Assembly: GCA_001464575.1 (NCBI GenBank)
Contig: LNFE01000209.1
Coordinates: 1-64,000, forward strand
Direction: 5' to 3'
From: Acidobacteria bacterium Ga0077553
Lineage (GTDB): Bacteria > Acidobacteriota > Terriglobia > Bryobacterales > Bryobacteraceae
Length of the DNA: 64,000 nt
Below the pieces are notes generated by a model. It worked only from the letters and a program-made list of their open reading frames with translations, did not search any database and had not been told where the DNA came from. Shown piece by piece: positions 31,995 to 43,056 of this stretch (positions are counted from its first letter, which is position 1; every line of letters begins with the position of its first letter). Position numbers and translations under genes: made by a program.

Positions 31995-33408
31995 ATGTCT
32001 CCGGATGTCATGGCGAAATACGAGGTGGTCATCGGCCTCGAAGTGCACGCGCAGCTCAGCACGCGCACCAAAATCTTCTGCTCCTGCCCCACCAGCTTCG
32101 GCGCGCAGCCCAATTCGAACGTCTGCCCCGTCTGCCTCGGTCTGCCCGGCGCCCTGCCGGTGCTCAGCCGCGGCGCTGTCGAACTCGGAGCCAAAGGCGC
32201 CCTCGCCCTGAACTGCGCCGTGCAGCCGGAGTCCGTTTTTGCCCGCAAGAACTACTTCTACCCGGACCTCCCCAAGGGCTACCAGATCTCGCAATTCGAT
32301 AAGCCCCTCGCCCTCGCCGGCCACCTCGACGTCCACGTCAACGGCGAGACCAAGCGCATCGGCATCACCCGCGTCCATATGGAAGACGACGCCGGCAAGT
32401 CCGTCCACGACGGGTTCAAGGACTCCGACCGCTTCACCTACGTCGACCTCAACCGCTCCGGCACCCCGCTTATCGAAATCGTCTCTGAACCCGATATCCG
32501 CAGCGCCGACGAGGCCGTCGAGTACTTCAACGAAGTACGCCAAGCCCTCGTCTTCGCCGAAGTCTCTGCCTGCGATATGGAGAAAGGCCACCTCCGCTGC
32601 GATGCCAACGTGTCGATGCGCCTCAAAGGCGCCGAGAAATTCGGCACCCGCGCCGAGGTCAAGAACCTCAACTCCTTCCGCTTCCTCAAACAGGCCATCG
32701 AATTCGAAATGGAGCGCCAGGTGGAGATCCTCGAGTCCGGCGGCCGCGTGATCCAAGAGACGCGCTTGTTCAGCCCCGACCTCGGCGAGACCATCTCCAT
32801 GCGCTCGAAGGAAGAGGCGCACGACTACCGCTACTTCCCTGAACCCGACCTGATCCCCGTCCGCGTGAGTCCGGAATTTCTCGCGCAGTTGCAGGCCTCC
32901 ATGCCGGAGCTGCCGCAAGCCCGACGCCCAAATCCTTACCTCGTCCCGCGAAACTGCCGACTACTTCGAGCGCGCTGCCCGCGCCTCCTCCGATCCCAAA
33001 CAGGCCGCGAATTGGGTAATGGGCGACCTCGCCGGCCTGCTCAAGGCCGACGGCAAGGAGATCCCCGAATCGCCCATTCCGGCTGAGCATATTGGCGAAC
33101 TCATCACGCTCATCACCAAGGGTGAACTCTCCGGCAAACTCGCCAAAGAGATCTTCCCGAAGATGTACGCCACCGGCGACTCGCCTTCGGTCATCGCCGA
33201 ACGCGAAGGCCTCAAACAGATCAGCGACACCGGCGCTTTGGAAAAGATCGTGGACGAAATCATCGCCGCCAATCCGAAACAGGTCGAGCAATATAAGGGC
33301 GGAAAGACCACCGTCATCGGCTTCCTGGTCGGCCAAGTGATGAAGCAATCCCGCGGCCAGGCGAACCCGGGCACCGTCAACGCGATTCTCGCGGAAAAGC
33401 TGAAATAA
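31995..33408 (+). pseudogene. gatB: Asp/Glu-tRNA(Asn/Gln) amidotransferase subunit B (GatB), frame-disrupted
   Basis: GatB amidates mischarged Glu-tRNA-Gln or Asp-tRNA-Asn. The 5' part is canonical: [78 protein letters not shown]. After MPELPQARR the frame becomes nonsense and stops at 33086. Another frame resumes the family sequence at [19 protein letters not shown] and continues through ANWVMGDL to the normal C-terminus (TTVIGFLVGQVMKQSRGQAN) at 33408. About 14 family residues (an R-Y-V-x-x-Y-G-L-P-like stretch) are missing at the junction near 32920-32928. A deletion of roughly 42 nt, off by one frame, explains this. GatB is normally needed in bacteria lacking GlnRS or AsnRS, so sequence error is a serious option. 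Confidence 0.88.
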
Positions 33409-33421
33409 TCCCGCTCTTGGC

Positions 33422-34138
33422 ATGAACATTTCCCGCCCGGATTGTCAGCCCTCTCCGCGTTACACTAACGAATTGTTGCTCACCGGAACTGATCGTCAGA
33501 GCGAAAACGCGGCCGCGATCGTTGGCCAAATAGCCCATGAACTCCGTCAGCCCCTCAGTGCGATGGAGGCCATCGTTTATTACCTCCAGCTGACCGTGAC
33601 GGATGACCCCCGCACCCGCGCCCAGATTGAGAAACTGCGCCAATTGATCGAGCAATCCGGCTCCATTCTCTCCGACGCCGTCCACTACCTTCAGGCCGCG
33701 CCCGCCCGCCCGGAACATCGCGATTTGCACGAAGCGCTCGCCGAGTGCCTAAGCCGCCTCGCCAACCCCGATCAAAACCTAATCGAGCTCGATCTCGCCG
33801 ATCCCTTCCCGCTCCTCAACTTCGACCTCACCCAGATGGACCACCTCCTGTCCACCGCGCTACGCTTCTGCCTCCGGGCCGGCCGCCGCGCGCAACCGGT
33901 TGAGGTCTCGACGCACGTCGAAGGCGCCTGCGCCGTGGTTAGCTTCTCGACGGCGGCTCCCCATTTCGACATCCCGACCCCCGAAGACCTCTTCACCCCG
34001 TTCGAAGACCATCCGGCGGCCGCCGCGGGGCTCGGCTTAGCCAGCATCCGCCGTATCGCCGAAGCGCACGGCGGCACGTGTCAGCTCACGGCGAATCCCG
34101 GCCACCGCGTCACGCTGCGCCTGGAGCTTCCGATCTAG
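33422..34138 (+). CDS. Small soluble histidine-kinase-like protein
   Basis: 238 aa, no transmembrane segment. The H-box is clear (AHELRQPLSAMEAIVYYLQL), followed by a HisKA-like helix pair. The ATPase domain is diverged: the N-box (normally N-x-x-x-N) reads LLSTALRFCLRAG without Asn, but the F-box (EDLFTPFE) and G2-like GLGLASIRRIAEAHGGTCQL are recognisable. It may bind ATP poorly and act as a phosphotransfer or scaffold protein. It starts 13 nt after gatB, and its stop overlaps the opposite FAD-oxidoreductase gene. No response regulator is adjacent. Confidence 0.7.
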   Translation: MNISRPDCQPSPRYTNELLLTGTDRQSENAAAIVGQIAHELRQPLSAMEAIVYYLQLTVTDDPRTRAQIEKLRQLIEQSGSILSDAVHYLQAAPARPEHRDLHEALAECLSRLANPDQNLIELDLADPFPLLNFDLTQMDHLLSTALRFCLRAGRRAQPVEVSTHVEGACAVVSFSTAAPHFDIPTPEDLFTPFEDHPAAAAGLGLASIRRIAEAHGGTCQLTANPGHRVTLRLELPI

Positions 34139-35796: not shown

Positions 35797-36777
35797 AGTT
35801 CCTCCACACGCATCCGTAACTCTTTCACTTCGGCCTTCAACTCGCCAATCCGCGCCACGTTCGCCAACTGCGTCAGATACTCCTTCAACGGCCGTGCCGG
35901 CGTCCCCCACACGACTTGATTCCCGTGCACAATCTTCGACGTCAACACCCCGCACCCACTCCCCCGCACGGCCTTCGATTCAATCCGCGCCTTATCGCCA
36001 ATGCCCGCCTGCCCGCCGATCACGGCATAGTCCTCCACCACCACGCCGCCCGATAAGCCCGTCTGCCTGGCAGTTATGCGCAATATGCACCATGTTGTCG
36101 AGCTTCACGCCATTCCCAATCCGCGTCACCCCCAGCGCCGCGCGATCAATGCAAGCGTTCGCGCCCAACTCAAAGTCATCGCCAATCTCCACGCGCCCCA
36201 CCTGCGGGAACTTCTGATAGCGCCCTTCGTGCATCACAAAGCCGAACCCATCGGCCCCAATCACGCACCCCGAATGCAGCACGGCCCGCGCCCCAATCGT
36301 CACCCCGTCATAGATTGTCACCCGCGCATGCAACAGCGCGTTCGGCCCAATCGTCACCCCCGCGCCCACCGCGCACCCGGCCCCAATCTCGCTCCCCGCG
36401 CCAATCTTCGTCCCCGCGCCGATGCTCGCCTGCGGTCCCACGCTCACCCCGTCGCCCAGCTCGACGCCCTCGCCCAGCACCGCCGTCGGATGCACCCCGG
36501 CCGCCGCCCGCCGTCGCGGATACAGCGCCATTAGGCACCGGGCAAACGCCCCCCGCGGCTGCGGCACATAGATCCGCGTGTCGCCCAACTCCATCCCCGG
36601 CGCTACCAGCAGGCAGCCGGCCTTCGTCGTCTCGGCAGCCTTCGCCCCCTTGGCGTTGCCCACGAAGCTCAGCTCCGCCGCCCCGGCCTCTTCCAGCGGC
36701 GCCGCCCCCGTAATGTCGCGTTCGCCCTCTCCCGCCCACTCGGCGCCCAGCATTGCTGCAATTTCCCGTACTTTCAT
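35784..36777 (-). pseudogene. lpxD: UDP-3-O-acylglucosamine N-acyltransferase (LpxD), frame-disrupted
   Basis: LpxD adds the N-linked acyl chain in lipid A synthesis. The N-terminal uridine-binding domain ([20 protein letters not shown]) and the left-handed beta-helix hexapeptides ([20 protein letters not shown]) are normal up to [10 protein letters not shown]. The frame then reads QADGLIGRR and soon stops at 35992. One frame over, the family sequence resumes: [19 protein letters not shown], then LTSKIVHGNQVVWGTPARPL and a coiled-coil C-terminus ending at 35784. About 10 residues between HNC and QTG (an I-G-x-H-V-V-I-A-A-like stretch in relatives) are missing near 36064-36074. LpxD is essential in most bacteria with lipid A. 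Confidence 0.87.
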
Positions 36778-36783
36778 AGCTCG

Positions 36784-36800
36784 AACGTTATGATAACGTT
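36784..36800. promoter_or_regulatory. Perfect inverted repeat between divergent lpxD and lpxA
   Basis: AACGTTATGATAACGTT: 8-nt arms AACGTTAT and ATAACGTT around a single G. It fills 17 of the 25 nt between the lpxD ATG (36777, minus strand) and the lpxA ATG (36803, plus strand). It is ideally placed as a shared operator or a transcription/translation barrier for both genes. AACGTT itself is palindromic, so the site can also be read as two half-sites. No known regulator is implied. Confidence 0.55.
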
Positions 36801-36802
36801 CA

Positions 36803-37615
36803 ATGGCCATCGATCCCTCGGCGCGCGTCGCCCCCACCGCCCGCGTCCATCCCGAAGCCCACATCGGGCCCCACACCGTCATCGGCGATTTCTGCCTCAT
36901 CGAGTCCGATGTCTCGATCGGCGCCCACTGCCTCATCGAGCCCTACGTCTTCATCAAACGCTGGACCACCCTCGGCGACCACAACGAAATCTCGGCCCAC
37001 ACCGTTCTCGGCACCGACCCGCTCGACCGCGCCTTCACCGGCGAACGCTCCTACCTCACCATCGGCCATCACAATAAGATCCGCGAACACTACACCATCT
37101 CCCGCGGCACCAAACCCGAATCCATCACCACCATCGGCGACCACAACTACGTCATGACCTCCGGCCACATCGCCCACAACGCGACCATCGGCTCCCACTG
37201 CACCATCGCCAGTTGCGCCCTCATCGCCGGCTATGTCACCGTCGAAGACCGCGCCTTCATCTCCGGCGGCGTCGGCATCCATCAGTATTCCAAGATCGGC
37301 CGCCTCGCCATGATCGGCGGCAACATCCGCGTCAACCTCGACGCCCCGCCCTACTTCCTCTACTCGGAATTCAACATCGCCCCCCGCGGCCTGAACCTCG
37401 TCGGCCTCCGCCGCGCCGGCTTTACGGTGGCCGATATCGCCCCGCTCAAACAGGCCTATCGCCTCCTCTACCGCTCCGGCCTCAAGCTCGCCGACGCCCT
37501 CGCCCGCATCGAAACCGAACTGCCCGGAGAACACACCCAGCACCTCGTCGACTTCATCCGCTCCTCCAAGCGCGGCATCGCTCGCGAGGGCCGCCCCGGT
37601 GATACAGTGAGCTAG
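36803..37615 (+). CDS. lpxA: UDP-N-acetylglucosamine acyltransferase (LpxA)
   Basis: 270 aa, normal for LpxA, which starts lipid A synthesis by 3-O-acylation of UDP-GlcNAc. Left-handed beta-helix repeats occupy residues 5-190 ([20 protein letters not shown]). The catalytic-His region reads [14 protein letters not shown], and [19 protein letters not shown] is typical. The C-terminal helices follow ([20 protein letters not shown], then [20 protein letters not shown]). It is divergent from lpxD with only 25 nt between, and the TolC-like gene begins at the base after its stop. Confidence 0.95.
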
Positions 37616-38953
37616 TTGCGCAGCATTCTCCTCCTTCTCACCCTCTGCTCCTGGGCCCTAGCGCAGGAGATCAGCCTGCCCGAAGCCGTCAAGCAAGCCA
37701 CCGCCAAGTACCCCTCGGTGCAGGTCTCGCTCGACCAGGTTTCGGAAGCCGCGGCCGGCATCAACCTCGCCCGTCTCGCCTATCTCCCCCGCGCCGAAAT
37801 GCTCGGGCAAATCAACCGCGCCACCGCCAATAACGTCTTCGGCCTCCTGCTCCCGCAAACCGTCGTCTCGCCCATCTCCGGCCCGCTGCTCCCCACCGGC
37901 GCCGCCTTCGCGAACGTCTGGGGCACCGCCGTCGGCGTGATGATCAACTGGGAGCCCTTCGACTTCGGCCGCCGTCAATCGGAAGTCGCCTCCGCCGCCG
38001 CCAGCAAGACCCGCGCCGAAGCCGCCGTCGCCCGCACCGAACTCGAAGTGGCCACGGCCACCGCCGACGCTTACCTCACGGTCCTCGCCGCCCAGCAGAC
38101 CGTCCTCTCCGCCCAAGCCGCCGTCACCCGCTCGCAGGAACTCGTCCGCCTCACCGAAGCCCTCGTCAAGGCCGACCTCCGTCCCGGCGCCGACCTCTCC
38201 CGCATCCAGTCCGAAGTGCTCCTCGCCCAGGCCCAGGTCGTCCGCGCGGAGCAAACCGCCGCCACCGCCCGCGCCACGCTCGTGCAATTCACCGGCCCGG
38301 CCACGCCCATCCACTCCTTCCGCGCCCTACCCCCGGCCACCCCGCCAACCGGCATCGCGACGGCCCATCCCATCCTCCGCGAACAGCAAGCCACCATTGA
38401 CGAAATCAAGTCCCGCCAAACGGTGATCGATAAAAGCTGGTACCCCCGCCTGAACACCCAGGCCAACGTCTTCGGCCGCGGCTCCGGCACCAATCTCGAA
38501 GGCCCCTTCCCCGGCGGCGCCGCCGGCCTCGGCCCCAACACCGGCAACTGGGCCATCGGGGCCACCGTCACCTTCCCGCTGCTCGAATACAAAACCCTCC
38601 GCGCCCGCCGACAAATCGAACAGCAGCGCATCGCCCGCGAGTCTTCCCGCAATGCGCTGCTCGAACGCGAACTCGCTGCCGCCCTCGACCGCGCCCAAAT
38701 CGCCGTCGCCACCGCCCGCAACCTCGCCACCATCACCCCGCAGCAGGTCACGCTCCTCCGCCAAACCCTCGACCAGACCACCGCCCGCTACCGTGCCGGC
38801 CTCGCCAACCTCACCGAAGTCACCGACACCCAACGCCTGCTCACGCAGTCCGAAATCGACCACGCCCTCGCCGTGCTCAACGTCTGGCGAGCCGAACTCG
38901 CTCTCGCCGCCACCCAAGGCGATCTCGCCCCCTTCCTGAGCAAGGTGCCCTAA
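37616..38953 (+). CDS. TolC-family outer-membrane efflux protein
   Basis: 445 aa starting with TTG immediately after the lpxA stop. Signal peptide (ILLLLTLCSWALA). Two OEP repeats of long helices follow: EISLPEAVKQATAKYPSVQV opens the first, ELEVATATADAYLTVLAAQQ continues it, and the second has WAIGATVTFPLLEYKTLRAR and RAGLANLTEVTDTQRLLTQS. It should form the trimeric outer-membrane channel for the RND pump encoded next (4-nt gap). The lpxA linkage suggests shared expression with lipid A synthesis. Confidence 0.9.
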   Translation: MRSILLLLTLCSWALAQEISLPEAVKQATAKYPSVQVSLDQVSEAAAGINLARLAYLPRAEMLGQINRATANNVFGLLLPQTVVSPISGPLLPTGAAFANVWGTAVGVMINWEPFDFGRRQSEVASAAASKTRAEAAVARTELEVATATADAYLTVLAAQQTVLSAQAAVTRSQELVRLTEALVKADLRPGADLSRIQSEVLLAQAQVVRAEQTAATARATLVQFTGPATPIHSFRALPPATPPTGIATAHPILREQQATIDEIKSRQTVIDKSWYPRLNTQANVFGRGSGTNLEGPFPGGAAGLGPNTGNWAIGATVTFPLLEYKTLRARRQIEQQRIARESSRNALLERELAAALDRAQIAVATARNLATITPQQVTLLRQTLDQTTARYRAGLANLTEVTDTQRLLTQSEIDHALAVLNVWRAELALAATQGDLAPFLSKVP

Positions 38954-38957
38954 ACCG

Positions 38958-41900
38958 ATGCGCCTCGTCCTCTTCGCCCTCCGTCGCCCGGTCACCATCC
39001 TCGTCGCCGTCCTGGCCATCGTCCTCTCTTCGTGGCTCGCCAGCCGGCGCATCGCCGTCGATATCTTTCCCGAAATCGGCCAGCCTGCCATCTTCGTCGC
39101 GCAGCCCTATGGCGGCATGGATCCCTCCCAAATGGAGGGCTACCTCACTTACTACTACGAGTATCACTTCCTCTACATCGCGGGCATTGAACACGTCGAG
39201 TCGAAAAACATTCAGGGCGCGTCCCTGATGAAGCTCTACTTCCACCCCGGCACCGACATGGCCCAAGCCATGGCCCAGGTCATCGGCTACGTCACCCGCT
39301 CCCGCGCCTTCATGCCCCCTGGCGTAGTCGGACCGTTCATTACGCGCTTCGATGGCGGCTCGGTCCCCGTAGGCCAGCTGATTTTCTCAAGCCCCACCCG
39401 GCCCCCCAGCGAGATGCAGGACATCGCGCTTAATCGCGTCCGCCCGCTCTTCGCCACGCTCCCCGGCGTCTCCGCCCCGCCCCCGTTCGGCGGCAACCAG
39501 CGCACCATCGTTGTCCGGCTAGATCCCGACAAACTCCGCAGCTATCGCATCTCCCCGGAAGAAGCCATCGCCGCCGTCAATAAAGCCTCCAGCGTCCAAC
39601 CCGCCGGCAACATCCGCATCGGCGACCTCAACAATTTCGCCACGTCCAATGCCGCCCTCGGCGCCAACCTGCCCGAGCTGATGGATGCCCCCGTGCGCCC
39701 CGGCGAAAGCCCGCCGGTCTTTCTTCGCGATATCGGCGTCGTCGAGAACGGCACCGACATCCTTACCGCCTACGCCCACGTCAACGGCAAGCGCACGGTC
39801 TACATGCAGATCACCAAGCGCTCCGACGCCTCCACGCTCGATGTCGTCAAAGCGGTCCGTGCCAATCTGCCCGCCTTCAAAGCCGTCTGCCCGGAAGATG
39901 TCGATGTCCGCGTCGAGTTCGATCAGTCCACCGTCGTCACGCAGTCCTTACGCAGTCTCGCCAACGAAGCCGTCCTGGGCGCCGTGCTCACCGGCCTCAT
40001 GGTCCTGCTCTTCCTCCGCGACTGGCGCAGCAGCCTAATCGTCATCACGACAATTCCCGTCGCCCTGCTCACTGCCCTCGTCGGCCTCTGGGCGCTCGGC
40101 CAGACGATCAACATCATGACCCTCGGTGGCCTCGCCCTCGCCGTCGGCGTGCTCGTCGACGAGGCGACCGTCGAAGTCGAAAACATCCACGCGCACATGG
40201 CCGGCGGCCTCGCCCGCGTGCAGAGCGTGCTGGAGGCTTGCCAGAAGACGGCCATGGCCCGCCTGCTCTCCATGCTCACCATCCTCGCCGTCTTCGCCCC
40301 GGCGCTCTTCATGACCGGCGTGGGCCGTCAACTCTTCGTCCCGCTCTCGCTCGCGGTGGCCCTCGCCATGGCCGCCAGCTATCTCCTGTCGAGCACCTTG
40401 GTGCCCGTGTTGGCTGCCAAGTTCGTCCGGCCCGCTGCCCACCGCCCTCGCCAAGCGCTCTATAGCAATTTGCTCAGCGCCCTCCTGCCCCTCCGCTGGG
40501 TCGTCGCCCCGCTCTATCTCCTCATCACCTTCGGCCTGCTCTTCGCTCTCGTGCCCCGCCTCGGCACCGAACTCTTCCCCACCGCTGACGCCGGTCAATT
40601 CAAGCTCCGCCTCCGGGCCGCCACCGGCACCCGTATCGAACGCACCGAAGAGTACGCCCTGCAGGCGCTAAAGCTGATTCAGCGTGAAGTCCCCGTCGAA
40701 ATCAGCTCCGCCTTCATCGGCGTCCAACCCGCCAGCTACCCTATCAACACCATCTTCCTCTGGACCTCCGGCCCGCACGAAGCCGTCTTCCAGGTCGCCC
40801 TCAAGCCGGAAGCCACGCTCCGCGGCGAACCCCTCCGCGAGCGCCTCCGCGCGGTCTTCGCGAAAGAACTTCCCCAGGTCCAGATGTCCTTCGAAGCCGG
40901 CGACATCGTCAGCGACGTCATGTCCTTCGGCTCGCCCACCCCTGTCGAAGTAGCTATCCAGGGCCCTGCCCTGCCCGCCAACCGCGCCCACGCCGAAAAG
41001 GTCATGGCCGAACTGCGCAAGCTCCCCGCCCTGCGCGATCTCCAGTTCGCTCAACCCCTCGACTACCCCACCGTCGACGTCCAGATCGATCGCGAACGCG
41101 CTGGCCAGTACGGCCTCACCATGGCCAACGTCGCGCGATCGCTCGTCGCCGCCACCTCCAGCTCCCGCTTCGTCGACCCCAACTACTGGCGCGATCCCAA
41201 CTCCGGCAACGCCTTCCAGATCCAAGTCGAAATCCCGCAGCATCGCATGGCATCCATCAGCGATCTCGCCGACCTCCCCGTGATGCAAAACCGCGAGGCC
41301 CGCCCCACCCTCGGCGACGTCGCCACCATCAAGCCCGGCAAGACCTACGGCCTCGTCGAGCGCTACAACATGCAGCGCGTCGTCTCCATCACCGCCAACC
41401 TGCACAACGTCCCCCTCGGCGTCGCCGAAAAGCAGATTCGCGAAGCCATCAAGAAAGCGGGCGACCCCGCCCGCGGCGTCACCGTCAATGTCCGTGGCCA
41501 GGTCCCGGCGCTGACCTCCACGCTCGACGGTCTCCGCCTCGGCCTCGCCATCGCCATCGCAGCCATCTTCCTGCTGCTCACGGCCAATTTCCAAAGCGTC
41601 CGCCTCGCCCTTGTCGTGCTCTCCACGGTGCCCGCCGTCCTCTCCGGCGTCGTGCTCGCCCTGCTGTTCACCGGCACCACGCTGAACATCCAAAGCTTCA
41701 TGGGCGCCATCATGGCCACGGGCATCGCCGTCGCCAACTCCATCTTGCTCGTCACCTTCGCCGAGCTCGCCCGCAAATCCGGCGGCTCCATCACGGAAGC
41801 CGCCGCCGCCCGGCTCCGCGCCGTGCTGATGACGGCCTTCGCCATGATGGCCGGCATGGCGCCCATCGCGCTCGGCGCGGAGCAGACCGCCCCGCTCGGC

Positions 41901-42029
41901 CGCGCTGTCCTCGGCGGGCTCGCGCTCGCCACGGTTGCCACGCTGACTGTCGTGCCGCTCTTCTATCAAATCCTCCAACCTAAAAACGCCAGCGACGCGT
42001 CGCTGTTACCCCATGAAGACAATCTTTAG
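38958..42029 (+). CDS. RND-family efflux pump inner-membrane protein (AcrB/HAE1-like)
   Basis: 1023 aa with 12 predicted transmembrane segments in the RND pattern, two large periplasmic loops and an internal repeat. TM1 is VTILVAVLAIVLSSWLASR. TM4 (LAVGVLVDEATVEVENI) has Asp-Glu in place of the usual Asp-Asp proton pair, still acidic. Further landmarks are NEAVLGAVLTGLMVLLFLRD, NFQSVRLALVVLSTVPAVLS and IQSFMGAIMATGIAVANSIL. The substrate is unknown. Gene order is channel, pump, adaptor, the reverse of the commoner adaptor-first order. Confidence 0.92.
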   Translation: MRLVLFALRRPVTILVAVLAIVLSSWLASRRIAVDIFPEIGQPAIFVAQPYGGMDPSQMEGYLTYYYEYHFLYIAGIEHVESKNIQGASLMKLYFHPGTDMAQAMAQVIGYVTRSRAFMPPGVVGPFITRFDGGSVPVGQLIFSSPTRPPSEMQDIALNRVRPLFATLPGVSAPPPFGGNQRTIVVRLDPDKLRSYRISPEEAIAAVNKASSVQPAGNIRIGDLNNFATSNAALGANLPELMDAPVRPGESPPVFLRDIGVVENGTDILTAYAHVNGKRTVYMQITKRSDASTLDVVKAVRANLPAFKAVCPEDVDVRVEFDQSTVVTQSLRSLANEAVLGAVLTGLMVLLFLRDWRSSLIVITTIPVALLTALVGLWALGQTINIMTLGGLALAVGVLVDEATVEVENIHAHMAGGLARVQSVLEACQKTAMARLLSMLTILAVFAPALFMTGVGRQLFVPLSLAVALAMAASYLLSSTLVPVLAAKFVRPAAHRPRQALYSNLLSALLPLRWVVAPLYLLITFGLLFALVPRLGTELFPTADAGQFKLRLRAATGTRIERTEEYALQALKLIQREVPVEISSAFIGVQPASYPINTIFLWTSGPHEAVFQVALKPEATLRGEPLRERLRAVFAKELPQVQMSFEAGDIVSDVMSFGSPTPVEVAIQGPALPANRAHAEKVMAELRKLPALRDLQFAQPLDYPTVDVQIDRERAGQYGLTMANVARSLVAATSSSRFVDPNYWRDPNSGNAFQIQVEIPQHRMASISDLADLPVMQNREARPTLGDVATIKPGKTYGLVERYNMQRVVSITANLHNVPLGVAEKQIREAIKKAGDPARGVTVNVRGQVPALTSTLDGLRLGLAIAIAAIFLLLTANFQSVRLALVVLSTVPAVLSGVVLALLFTGTTLNIQSFMGAIMATGIAVANSILLVTFAELARKSGGSITEAAAARLRAVLMTAFAMMAGMAPIALGAEQTAPLGRAVLGGLALATVATLTVVPLFYQILQPKNASDASLLPHEDNL

Positions 42030-43056
42030 CCTCGCCCTCCTCTGCGCCGCAGGCCTGCTCGCCCAGGAGACCGTCGCCGTCGTCGTTCAGCCGCTCGACC
42101 GCAAGCTCCGCCTGCCTGCCGAGATCCTGCCCTATCAAGCCGTCGATCTCCACGCCCGCGTCCCCGGCTTCGTCGAGAAGGTCGAGGTCGACCGCGGCAG
42201 CGTAGTCCGCAAAGGGCAGTTGCTCATCGAACTCGTCGCCCCCGAACTCTGGGCCCAACTCGCCGAAGTGGAAGCCAAGGCCGTCGCCGTCGAAAGCCAA
42301 CGCGCCGAAGCCGAAGCCCGCCTCGCCAGTCAAGAAGCGGTGCTCGAACGCCTAAAGCAAGCCTCCACCACGGCCGGCGCCGTCGCTGGCATTGAAGTCA
42401 TCCAGACGCAGAAAGCGGCCGACGCCTTGAAGTCGCAAATCACGAGCATCCAAAGCCAAGCCCGCGCCACCCGCGCCTCCGCCGATGCCATCTCCCAACT
42501 GATCGGCTACCTCAAGATCACTGCCCCGTTCGACGGCGTCATTACGGCCCGCCTCGTCCACCCCGGTGCCTTAGCCAACGGCCCGCTGCTCCGCCTCGAA
42601 CAGGTCAACCGCCTCCGTGTCGTCGTCGCGCTGCCGGAGTCCGAAGTGGCCACCATGGTCCCCGGCGCCAACGTGCCGTTCACCATTGCTGGCGGCCTCA
42701 CCGGCAGCGGCGTCATCACCCGCATCGCCCGTTCGCTTGATCCGAAAACCCGCACCATGCCCGTGGAACTCGAAGTGGCCAACCCCACCGGCAAGCTCAG
42801 CCCCGGCATGTACGCTGAAGCCACGTGGCCTGCCCGTCGCGCCAAGCCGTCCATTCTTGTGCCGCCCACCGCCGTCGTCACCACCACGGAGAAGGTCTTC
42901 GTCATCCGCAACAACAACGGCCAGGCCGAGCACGTCCCCGTGGCCAAAGGCGCTCCCGCCGGCGACCTGCTCGAAGTCTTCGGCGCCCTCAGCGCCGGCG
43001 ACAAAATCCTGCGCCGCGCCACGGACGAGATTCGCCCCGGCACCGTCATCAAATAA
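42013..43056 (+). CDS. RND pump periplasmic adaptor (membrane fusion protein)
   Basis: 347 aa. Signal peptide (IFSLALLCAAGLLA). Lipoyl half-domains flank a helical hairpin: YQAVDLHARVPGFVEKVEV at the first half, an Ala/Glu-rich coiled coil at about 75-150, then YLKITAPFDGVITARLVHPG. Beta-barrel and membrane-proximal domains follow (LPESEVATMVPGANVPFTIA, then LSPGMYAEATWP and ILVPPTAVVTT). It starts inside the RND gene (17-nt overlap), consistent with coupled translation. Confidence 0.9.
   Translation: MKTIFSLALLCAAGLLAQETVAVVVQPLDRKLRLPAEILPYQAVDLHARVPGFVEKVEVDRGSVVRKGQLLIELVAPELWAQLAEVEAKAVAVESQRAEAEARLASQEAVLERLKQASTTAGAVAGIEVIQTQKAADALKSQITSIQSQARATRASADAISQLIGYLKITAPFDGVITARLVHPGALANGPLLRLEQVNRLRVVVALPESEVATMVPGANVPFTIAGGLTGSGVITRIARSLDPKTRTMPVELEVANPTGKLSPGMYAEATWPARRAKPSILVPPTAVVTTTEKVFVIRNNNGQAEHVPVAKGAPAGDLLEVFGALSAGDKILRRATDEIRPGTVIK

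Follow-up and report, generated by a model that had tools for sequence, protein, structure and literature searches.

Gene content of the locus

In the window, that is, the whole stretch of 64,000 nt that was analyzed, an lpxD gene starting at 36777 on the minus strand and an lpxA gene starting at 36803 on the plus strand diverge from a gap of 25 nt (36778-36802). Both products match their enzyme families (Table 1); LpxD narrowly misses TIGR01853 (233.7 vs 242.5), passes the subfamily cut-off and can be aligned to LpxD families as far as about residue 237, the point at which the reading frame breaks. In relatives the gene spans 336-342 codons (10 checked) and 339-342 codons in all seven close relatives checked, so intact copies of this lpxD exist. 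A short out-of-frame deletion relative to the close relative G008 lies at 36066-36067, and the frame break may reflect either decay of a second gene copy or an assembly fault. The gatB gene (32010-33408) is likewise split into two overlapping frames, for the catalytic and the GatB_Yqey domain, near a second short deletion relative to G008; two breaks within 4 kb, both in conserved genes, may be assembly faults in the present genome. A sensor-like protein with a HATPase_c domain is encoded at 33422-34138.

The present genome encodes another lpxA in a fabZ-lpxA-lpxI run on another contig and another lpxD on a third contig, and the divergent genes therefore constitute a second set. In the canonical lpxD-fabZ-lpxA operon the same enzyme families are encoded, whereas here they form a second, divergent pair in which lpxA heads a run of genes for a TolC-like protein, an RND permease and an adaptor. 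The spare lipid A acyltransferase gene lpxA travels with these RND pump genes (36803-43056). Among loci with over 1,200 nt available from the start of lpxA onwards, tolC follows lpxA in 20 of 29, the present one included, and in all 18 of its own genus.

Table 1 Positions of genes and sequence elements around the divergent lpxD-lpxA gap.
Feature	Position	Strand	Remarks
lpxD, second copy, 261 codons with frame break	35992..36777	-	PRK00892.1, 263.3 bits vs 207
Perfect 19-nt dyad GAACGTTAT-G-ATAACGTTC	36783..36801		17-mer plus one pair
Alternative, weaker lpxD -10 box TAACGT (predicted)	36785..36790	-	at -13
Core TATGATA, two overlapping -10 boxes	36789..36795		-7/-11 shared reciprocally
lpxA -10 box TATGAT (predicted)	36789..36794	+	first T at -14 from ATG
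lpxD -10 box TATCAT (predicted)	36790..36795	-	first T at -18 from ATG
lpxA, second copy, 270 aa	36803..37615	+	TIGR01852, 276.6 bits vs cut-off 231.05
tolC-like outer membrane efflux protein	37616..38953	+	PF02321; next after lpxA
RND efflux permease	38958..42029	+	PF00873; same run
Periplasmic adaptor (RND_mfp)	42013..43056	+	TIGR01730, 174 bits vs 94.9; next in run

A conserved palindrome fills the intergenic gap

A preliminary description of this DNA had placed a perfect palindrome of 17 nt between the two genes. The palindrome is present and its inner 17-mer AACGTTATGATAACGTT (36784-36800) was reported correctly, but the perfect dyad is two bases longer. It is an odd-centred inverted repeat with 9-nt arms around one unpaired G, and it fills 19 of the 25 gap bases. 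The genome search for other copies that had been proposed was run: the 19-mer occurs once in the 6.45-Mb assembly (completeness 92.92), with no second copy at up to two mismatches, and the next-best place, the only other one within three mismatches, differs at exactly three positions (two matches in the reversed control). Counting perfect dyads with arms of 9 nt or more around a 1-nt centre gives one in the window and 13 in 1.19 Mb of G008; about 0.7 are expected per 64 kb, so that the length alone is not rare. What needs explaining is the place of the dyad in a 25-nt divergent gap, together with its conservation.

Across eight close genomes, four of the 25 gap columns vary. In lpxA, the variable columns out of 260 for each codon position are 200 at the third, 50 at the first and 28 at the second. 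The gap is thus as constrained as first and second codon positions and far more constrained than third positions. The site is confirmed, conserved and functional-looking.

Beyond its core, the palindrome was found in eight of the 19 genus genomes searched, and these are the closest eight. The preliminary description had made conservation in relatives with the same divergent gene order the test of the site, and this holds in part: five of the eight carry a perfect dyad and three have broken pairs (one in G005 and G011, two in G017), but the arms are absent elsewhere in the genus. One arm pair reads T-A in two of the eight genomes, C-G in three and unpaired C/A in three. Since the C-G form has lost the direct repeat, inverted symmetry is what is kept; this is modest evidence for selection on symmetry, as the tree does not settle which pair form came first. 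A direct repeat (AACGTT twice) was ruled out, because the C-G form in three genomes breaks it while keeping the inverted repeat. The left arm has one variable column and the right arm two. When a degenerate dyad with up to one mismatch was searched in the 19 genus genomes, one site per genome was found in all eight carriers.

Half of the dyad also occurs on its own. The half-module TATCATAGCGTT lies before one other gene in all eight close genomes, without the other dyad half. This gene has a Shine-Dalgarno (SD) motif and encodes a protein of 80 aa, and the distance from the first T of the half-module to its start is 27 nt. At these places (L188, L189, L191 and L193-L197, near base 2000) it resembles a well-conserved, ordinary-looking promoter. 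Half-module places in the 19 genus genomes number 32: 15 at the lpxD/lpxA site, eight before the gene for the 80-aa protein and nine others. General enrichment of the half-module TATNATARCGTT was not observed in these genomes, with the nine places beyond the two loci comparing with eight in the reversed control. In G020, from another genus, TATCATAACGTT is kept before lpxA and the full left arm is absent, the upstream DNA reading TATCATAACGTTAC. The half-module alone before the 80-aa gene, and the right side without a full left arm in G020, are the grounds on which the palindrome is read as two putative modules, each a -10 box plus discriminator, with a common core.

Overlapping candidate -10 boxes and predicted transcription starts

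The centre of the dyad, TATGATA, holds a candidate -10 box on either strand (Table 1), and the two pair reciprocally, -7 of each with -11 of the other. The predicted start site for lpxA is 36801-36803, which would give a leaderless mRNA, and that for lpxD is 36781-36783, which would leave a leader of about 5 nt; taken at 36801 and 36783, the predicted starts are 18 bp apart. If the alternative box TAACGT were used, lpxD would be fully leaderless and the predicted starts would be 23 bp apart.

Bidirectional sigma70 promoters are described as having a symmetrical -10 element with overlapping boxes on opposite strands (Middlemiss et al. 2023, PMC10268837; Warman et al. 2021, as cited in PMC12825309). 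Their commonest geometry is given as reciprocal -7/-11 positions with starts 18 bp apart (PMC10268837, PMC12825309), and a 23-bp start spacing is also listed as common (PMC12825309). A spacing of 10 bp belongs to this promoter class as well. The lpxD-lpxA gap resembles these promoters in its overlapping -10 boxes, in the reciprocal -7/-11 positions of TATGATA, in the 18 bp between predicted starts and in having no clear -35 element: a scan of 36600-37000 in both directions found no classical -35/-10 pair. It differs in a symmetry that extends over 19 nt, in its predicted products, both of which would be mRNAs of conserved protein-coding genes beginning almost at the predicted start sites, and in the absence of a thymine at -18, a frequent but not obligatory base that is here G with starts at 36801/36783 and A with starts at 36802/36782.

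Leaderless genes provide the second point of comparison. The leaderless (TA-led) class is marked by TANNNT some 12 bp before the start codon and is given as averaging 13.3 percent of genes in three Acidobacteria genomes (Zheng et al. 2011, PMC3160421). As in such genes, TANNNT is present at about this distance in the gap, and no SD motif precedes lpxA or lpxD in the window; unlike them, two genes here would share one box, with a leader of about 5 nt on lpxD unless TAACGT is used. The box of lpxA, at -14, falls within the 10-15 nt or so before the start codon that characterize leaderless genes. For lpxD the better box, at -18, is off this optimum, and the box at -13 is the weak one.

The core is conserved beyond the palindrome

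Of 61 genomes searched, 54 gave a match at E <= 1e-60; upstream DNA was read for 50 of these, leaving out G038, G040, G043 and G057. The lpxA start was present in 49 of the 50 (in G035 it is cut by a contig end), and 34 of the 49 belong to the same family. Genomes of one genus are related, and the per-genome counts given here are therefore not independent. In 31 of the 34 family genomes lpxD is divergent within 135 nt of lpxA, with a gap of 16-25 nt in 23. The divergence that had been singled out as unusual is thus real, and normal for the family.

All 23 short-gap genomes, the present one included, 18 from one genus and five from five other genera, carry TANNNTA in the gap (6/6 genera), and 21 carry the stricter TATNATA. 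The middle base varies between G and C among genomes, which fits a free centre of the core; counted from lpxD, this core lies at -11 to -18 in all 23. TATNATA lies within 21 nt before lpxA in 25 of the 34 family genomes (mean 0.04 and maximum 2 in 1000 shuffles) and, with one genome per genus, in 8 of 17 (shuffle mean 0.02, maximum 1); the looser TANNNT is found in 15 of 17 (shuffle mean 2.5), these shuffles keeping base composition only. In a control stretch further upstream of lpxA, TATNATA was found in none of the 34. The core is rarer outside the family (4/15 genomes), and its reciprocal form is absent in three of the 31 divergent family genomes (G023, G025 and G028). As a putative unit shared by the two genes, the 7-nt TATNATA core is conserved family-wide, whereas the 17-nt palindrome that had been proposed for this role is confined to eight of the 19 genus genomes. 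The proposal of one short site for both genes nevertheless appears plausible, given the core in 23 of 23 short-gap genomes.

Gap length goes together with the presence of an SD motif before lpxD. In counts given without a shuffle control, an SD-like motif precedes lpxD in none of the 23 genomes (0/6 genera) with gaps of 16-25 nt and in seven of eight (eight genera) with gaps of 41-135 nt; before lpxA, such a motif was seen in one of the 23 short-gap genomes. The core is kept at -14 to -16 of lpxA in five of the eight wide-gap genomes. On the simplest reading, short gaps leave no room for an lpxD leader, and in wide gaps a leader has grown from the same core.

A set of 24 named loci with an lpxA relative comprised 21 metagenome-assembled genomes (MAGs) labelled as Bryobacteraceae, Bryobacterales or other acidobacteria and three loci labelled as Planctomycetes, whose best identity was 44 percent; the nearest relative was an acidobacterial MAG at 99 percent, and the window belongs to this acidobacterial group. 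In 15 of the 24 the upstream sequence differs from all 50 genomes. Among these 15, TATNATA stands at -14 or -15 in five (L170, L174, L176, L177 and L183), TATGAT without the final A occurs in five (L171, L178, L179, L181 and L182), L180 has TAATCTA at -10, and neither core form was seen in four, L169 and the Planctomycetes L184-L186, the starts of which are extrapolated.

Promoter-like patterns at other divergent gene pairs

Genome-wide counts relied on gene starts from a simple, purpose-made caller. Among 230 genes of G008 with a divergent neighbor, 46 TANNNT motifs begin at -15 to -12, compared with about 3.3 per offset elsewhere. A gap this tight is no exception: 18 divergent pairs with gaps of 10-45 nt were called in 1.19 Mb of G008. 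TANNNT is present on both strands in 11 of these 18 gaps (mean 3.9 and maximum 8 in dinucleotide-preserving shuffles, which were used for all divergent gaps of G008) and TANNNTA in six (shuffle mean 1.9, maximum 5). TANNNTA also occurs in nine of 29 gaps of 46-90 nt (mean 2.9) and nine of 25 gaps of 91-150 nt (mean 4.5); the excess holds up to 150 nt and does not single out short gaps. The strict TATNATA is not significant in the short gaps of G008, where 17 of 200 shuffles equalled its one occurrence in 18. The lpxD-lpxA pair is missing from the G008 pairs listed at 8-45 nt. In the present genome the caller set the lpxD start at 36753, giving a gap of 49 nt, and probably did the same in G008, where the pair may fall in the 46-90 nt class as its one TATNATA case.

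An earlier gene-start profile over 300 kb of the present genome was too weak to use alone. TATGATA followed by ATG after 4-24 nt occurs 27 times in this genome, compared with 12 in a reversed control. Eighteen of the 27 places have spacings of 5-12 nt; a frame of at least 97 codons begins at the ATG in 14 of the 18 and does not in the other four.

A probable shared bidirectional promoter and its alternatives

Judged from the DNA and its conservation, the palindrome is quite probably a compact bidirectional housekeeping promoter from which both lpxA and lpxD would be transcribed with no leader or almost none. The preliminary description had offered two options, promoters inside the opposite genes or promoters that are overlapping and compact, and the second is the better one. 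The dyad would consist of two back-to-back copies of one module, TATNATAACGTTC, with the -10 boxes overlapping on the two strands as TATGATA. RNA polymerase would bind in either orientation, never in both at once. In one orientation it would transcribe lpxA and the tolC-RND-adaptor genes from a start at, or one to two bases before, the ATG, yielding a leaderless mRNA, and in the other it would transcribe lpxD from about 5 bases before its ATG. Transcripts would thus start in both directions as predicted and be translated without a leader, and the arms would owe their symmetry to a single discriminator sequence that is read on either strand.

The reading as a two-way promoter is supported by the TANNNTA core in all 23 short-gap genomes, by TATNATA close to lpxA in 25 of the 34 family genomes, by the half-module before the gene for the 80-aa protein and the partial site of G020, by the contrast in SD motifs between short and wide gaps, by the TANNNT peak at -15 to -12 and the TANNNT on both strands of short gaps in G008, and by the agreement with the published geometry. 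Weighing against it are the missing -35/-10 pair, the missing -18 thymine and the position of the better lpxD box. The arms, with 21 of 25 gap columns invariant, are also constrained beyond the needs of a -10 box. In addition, strict TATNATA is not significant in G008 and the TANNNTA excess extends to wider gaps, the half-module is not generally enriched, and three divergent family genomes do not have the reciprocal core.

An alternative that we regard as unlikely is an operator function, in which the dyad would bind a dimeric transcription factor that represses or activates both genes and would overlie an ordinary bidirectional promoter. A perfect dyad of 19 nt with almost invariant arms would suit such a protein, as would the series of T-A, C-G and mismatched forms at one arm pair, which keeps inverted symmetry rather than a direct repeat. 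However, each of the eight carriers has a single site at up to one mismatch, the present assembly has no second copy at up to two, and no further dyad copies of the kind expected of a regulon were found before other genes; with no second copy in the search of the present assembly at up to three mismatches, apart from the one place at exactly three, or in the 19 genus genomes, a global regulator is disfavored. A Pfam scan of 18 proteins between 28334 and 48944, a subset of the genes there that includes the lpx and efflux genes, detected no DNA-binding or helix-turn-helix domain (three of the 18 matched no family). The arms are moreover missing in relatives with the same divergent order, pairs are broken in three of eight genomes, and the half-module stands alone before another gene.

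We consider it distinctly improbable that the core is a one-way leaderless promoter of lpxA, with the lpxD promoter inside lpxA and the lpxD side of the dyad incidental. The core does stand at -14 to -16 of lpxA in eight genomes in which the gap to lpxD is 65-955 nt (G020, G024, G033, G034, G036, G048, G049 and G050) and at -14 in G054, where a divergent lpxD was undetected; -10 boxes are also partly symmetrical by nature. A one-way promoter would, however, sit poorly with the core lying at -11 to -18 of lpxD in every short-gap genome and with a left arm that is no less conserved than the right (one variable column vs two), and the SD motif of wide-gap lpxD genes (7/8) would be expected of a leader that lengthened from an unchanged start. 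Chance symmetry in a functionless A+T-rich gap, for which the expected frequency of such dyads might speak, can hardly be credited when the core is conserved across genera and the variability of the gap is as low as that of first and second codon positions and well below that of third ones.

As a bidirectional promoter, the site is best read as a neat instance of a switch type already described and not as a new kind of DNA element. Its parts are known, and they are combined here in a core shared by a conserved gene pair, with a gap-filling dyad in one branch. Such a combination was not found in the literature searched, most subscription papers being outside its reach, and among the papers listed by a search covering few subscription papers none appeared to concern lpxA/lpxD divergence in Acidobacteria or leaderless bidirectional promoters. 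As a more far-reaching and rather doubtful proposal, the intergenic region in this branch of the Bryobacteraceae may have shrunk to a symmetrical promoter without direction preference, at which lpxD and the lpxA-tolC-RND genes compete, near-leaderless and free of a regulator. If this were true, each binding of polymerase would yield one message or the other, and N-acylation of lipid A would be coupled to envelope efflux genes by direct competition for one site.

On the two-way promoter reading, the locus offers a natural, conserved case of a single -10 element apparently shared by two protein-coding genes with almost no leader, and it shows that a palindrome in a very short divergent gap can be read as a promoter and need not be an operator. 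Its relatives, which vary in gap length and in the SD motif on one side, provide a natural series in which the constraints of a bidirectional promoter can be set against those of leaderless translation.

Other divergent pairs of G008 with gaps of 13-45 nt also have -10-like boxes on both strands, for example at 1119-1152 of contig C9 and 253773-253799 of contig C16, which suggests that compact two-way promoters recur in this lineage. Among the named loci, L179, L181 and L182 are tighter still upstream of lpxA, at base 2500, with about 13 nt, as judged by eye, between the apparent lpxD start and lpxA. They have TATGAT near -14 of lpxA and, at about -14 of lpxD, the start of which is putative, a TAGACT that overlaps the lpxA start codon.
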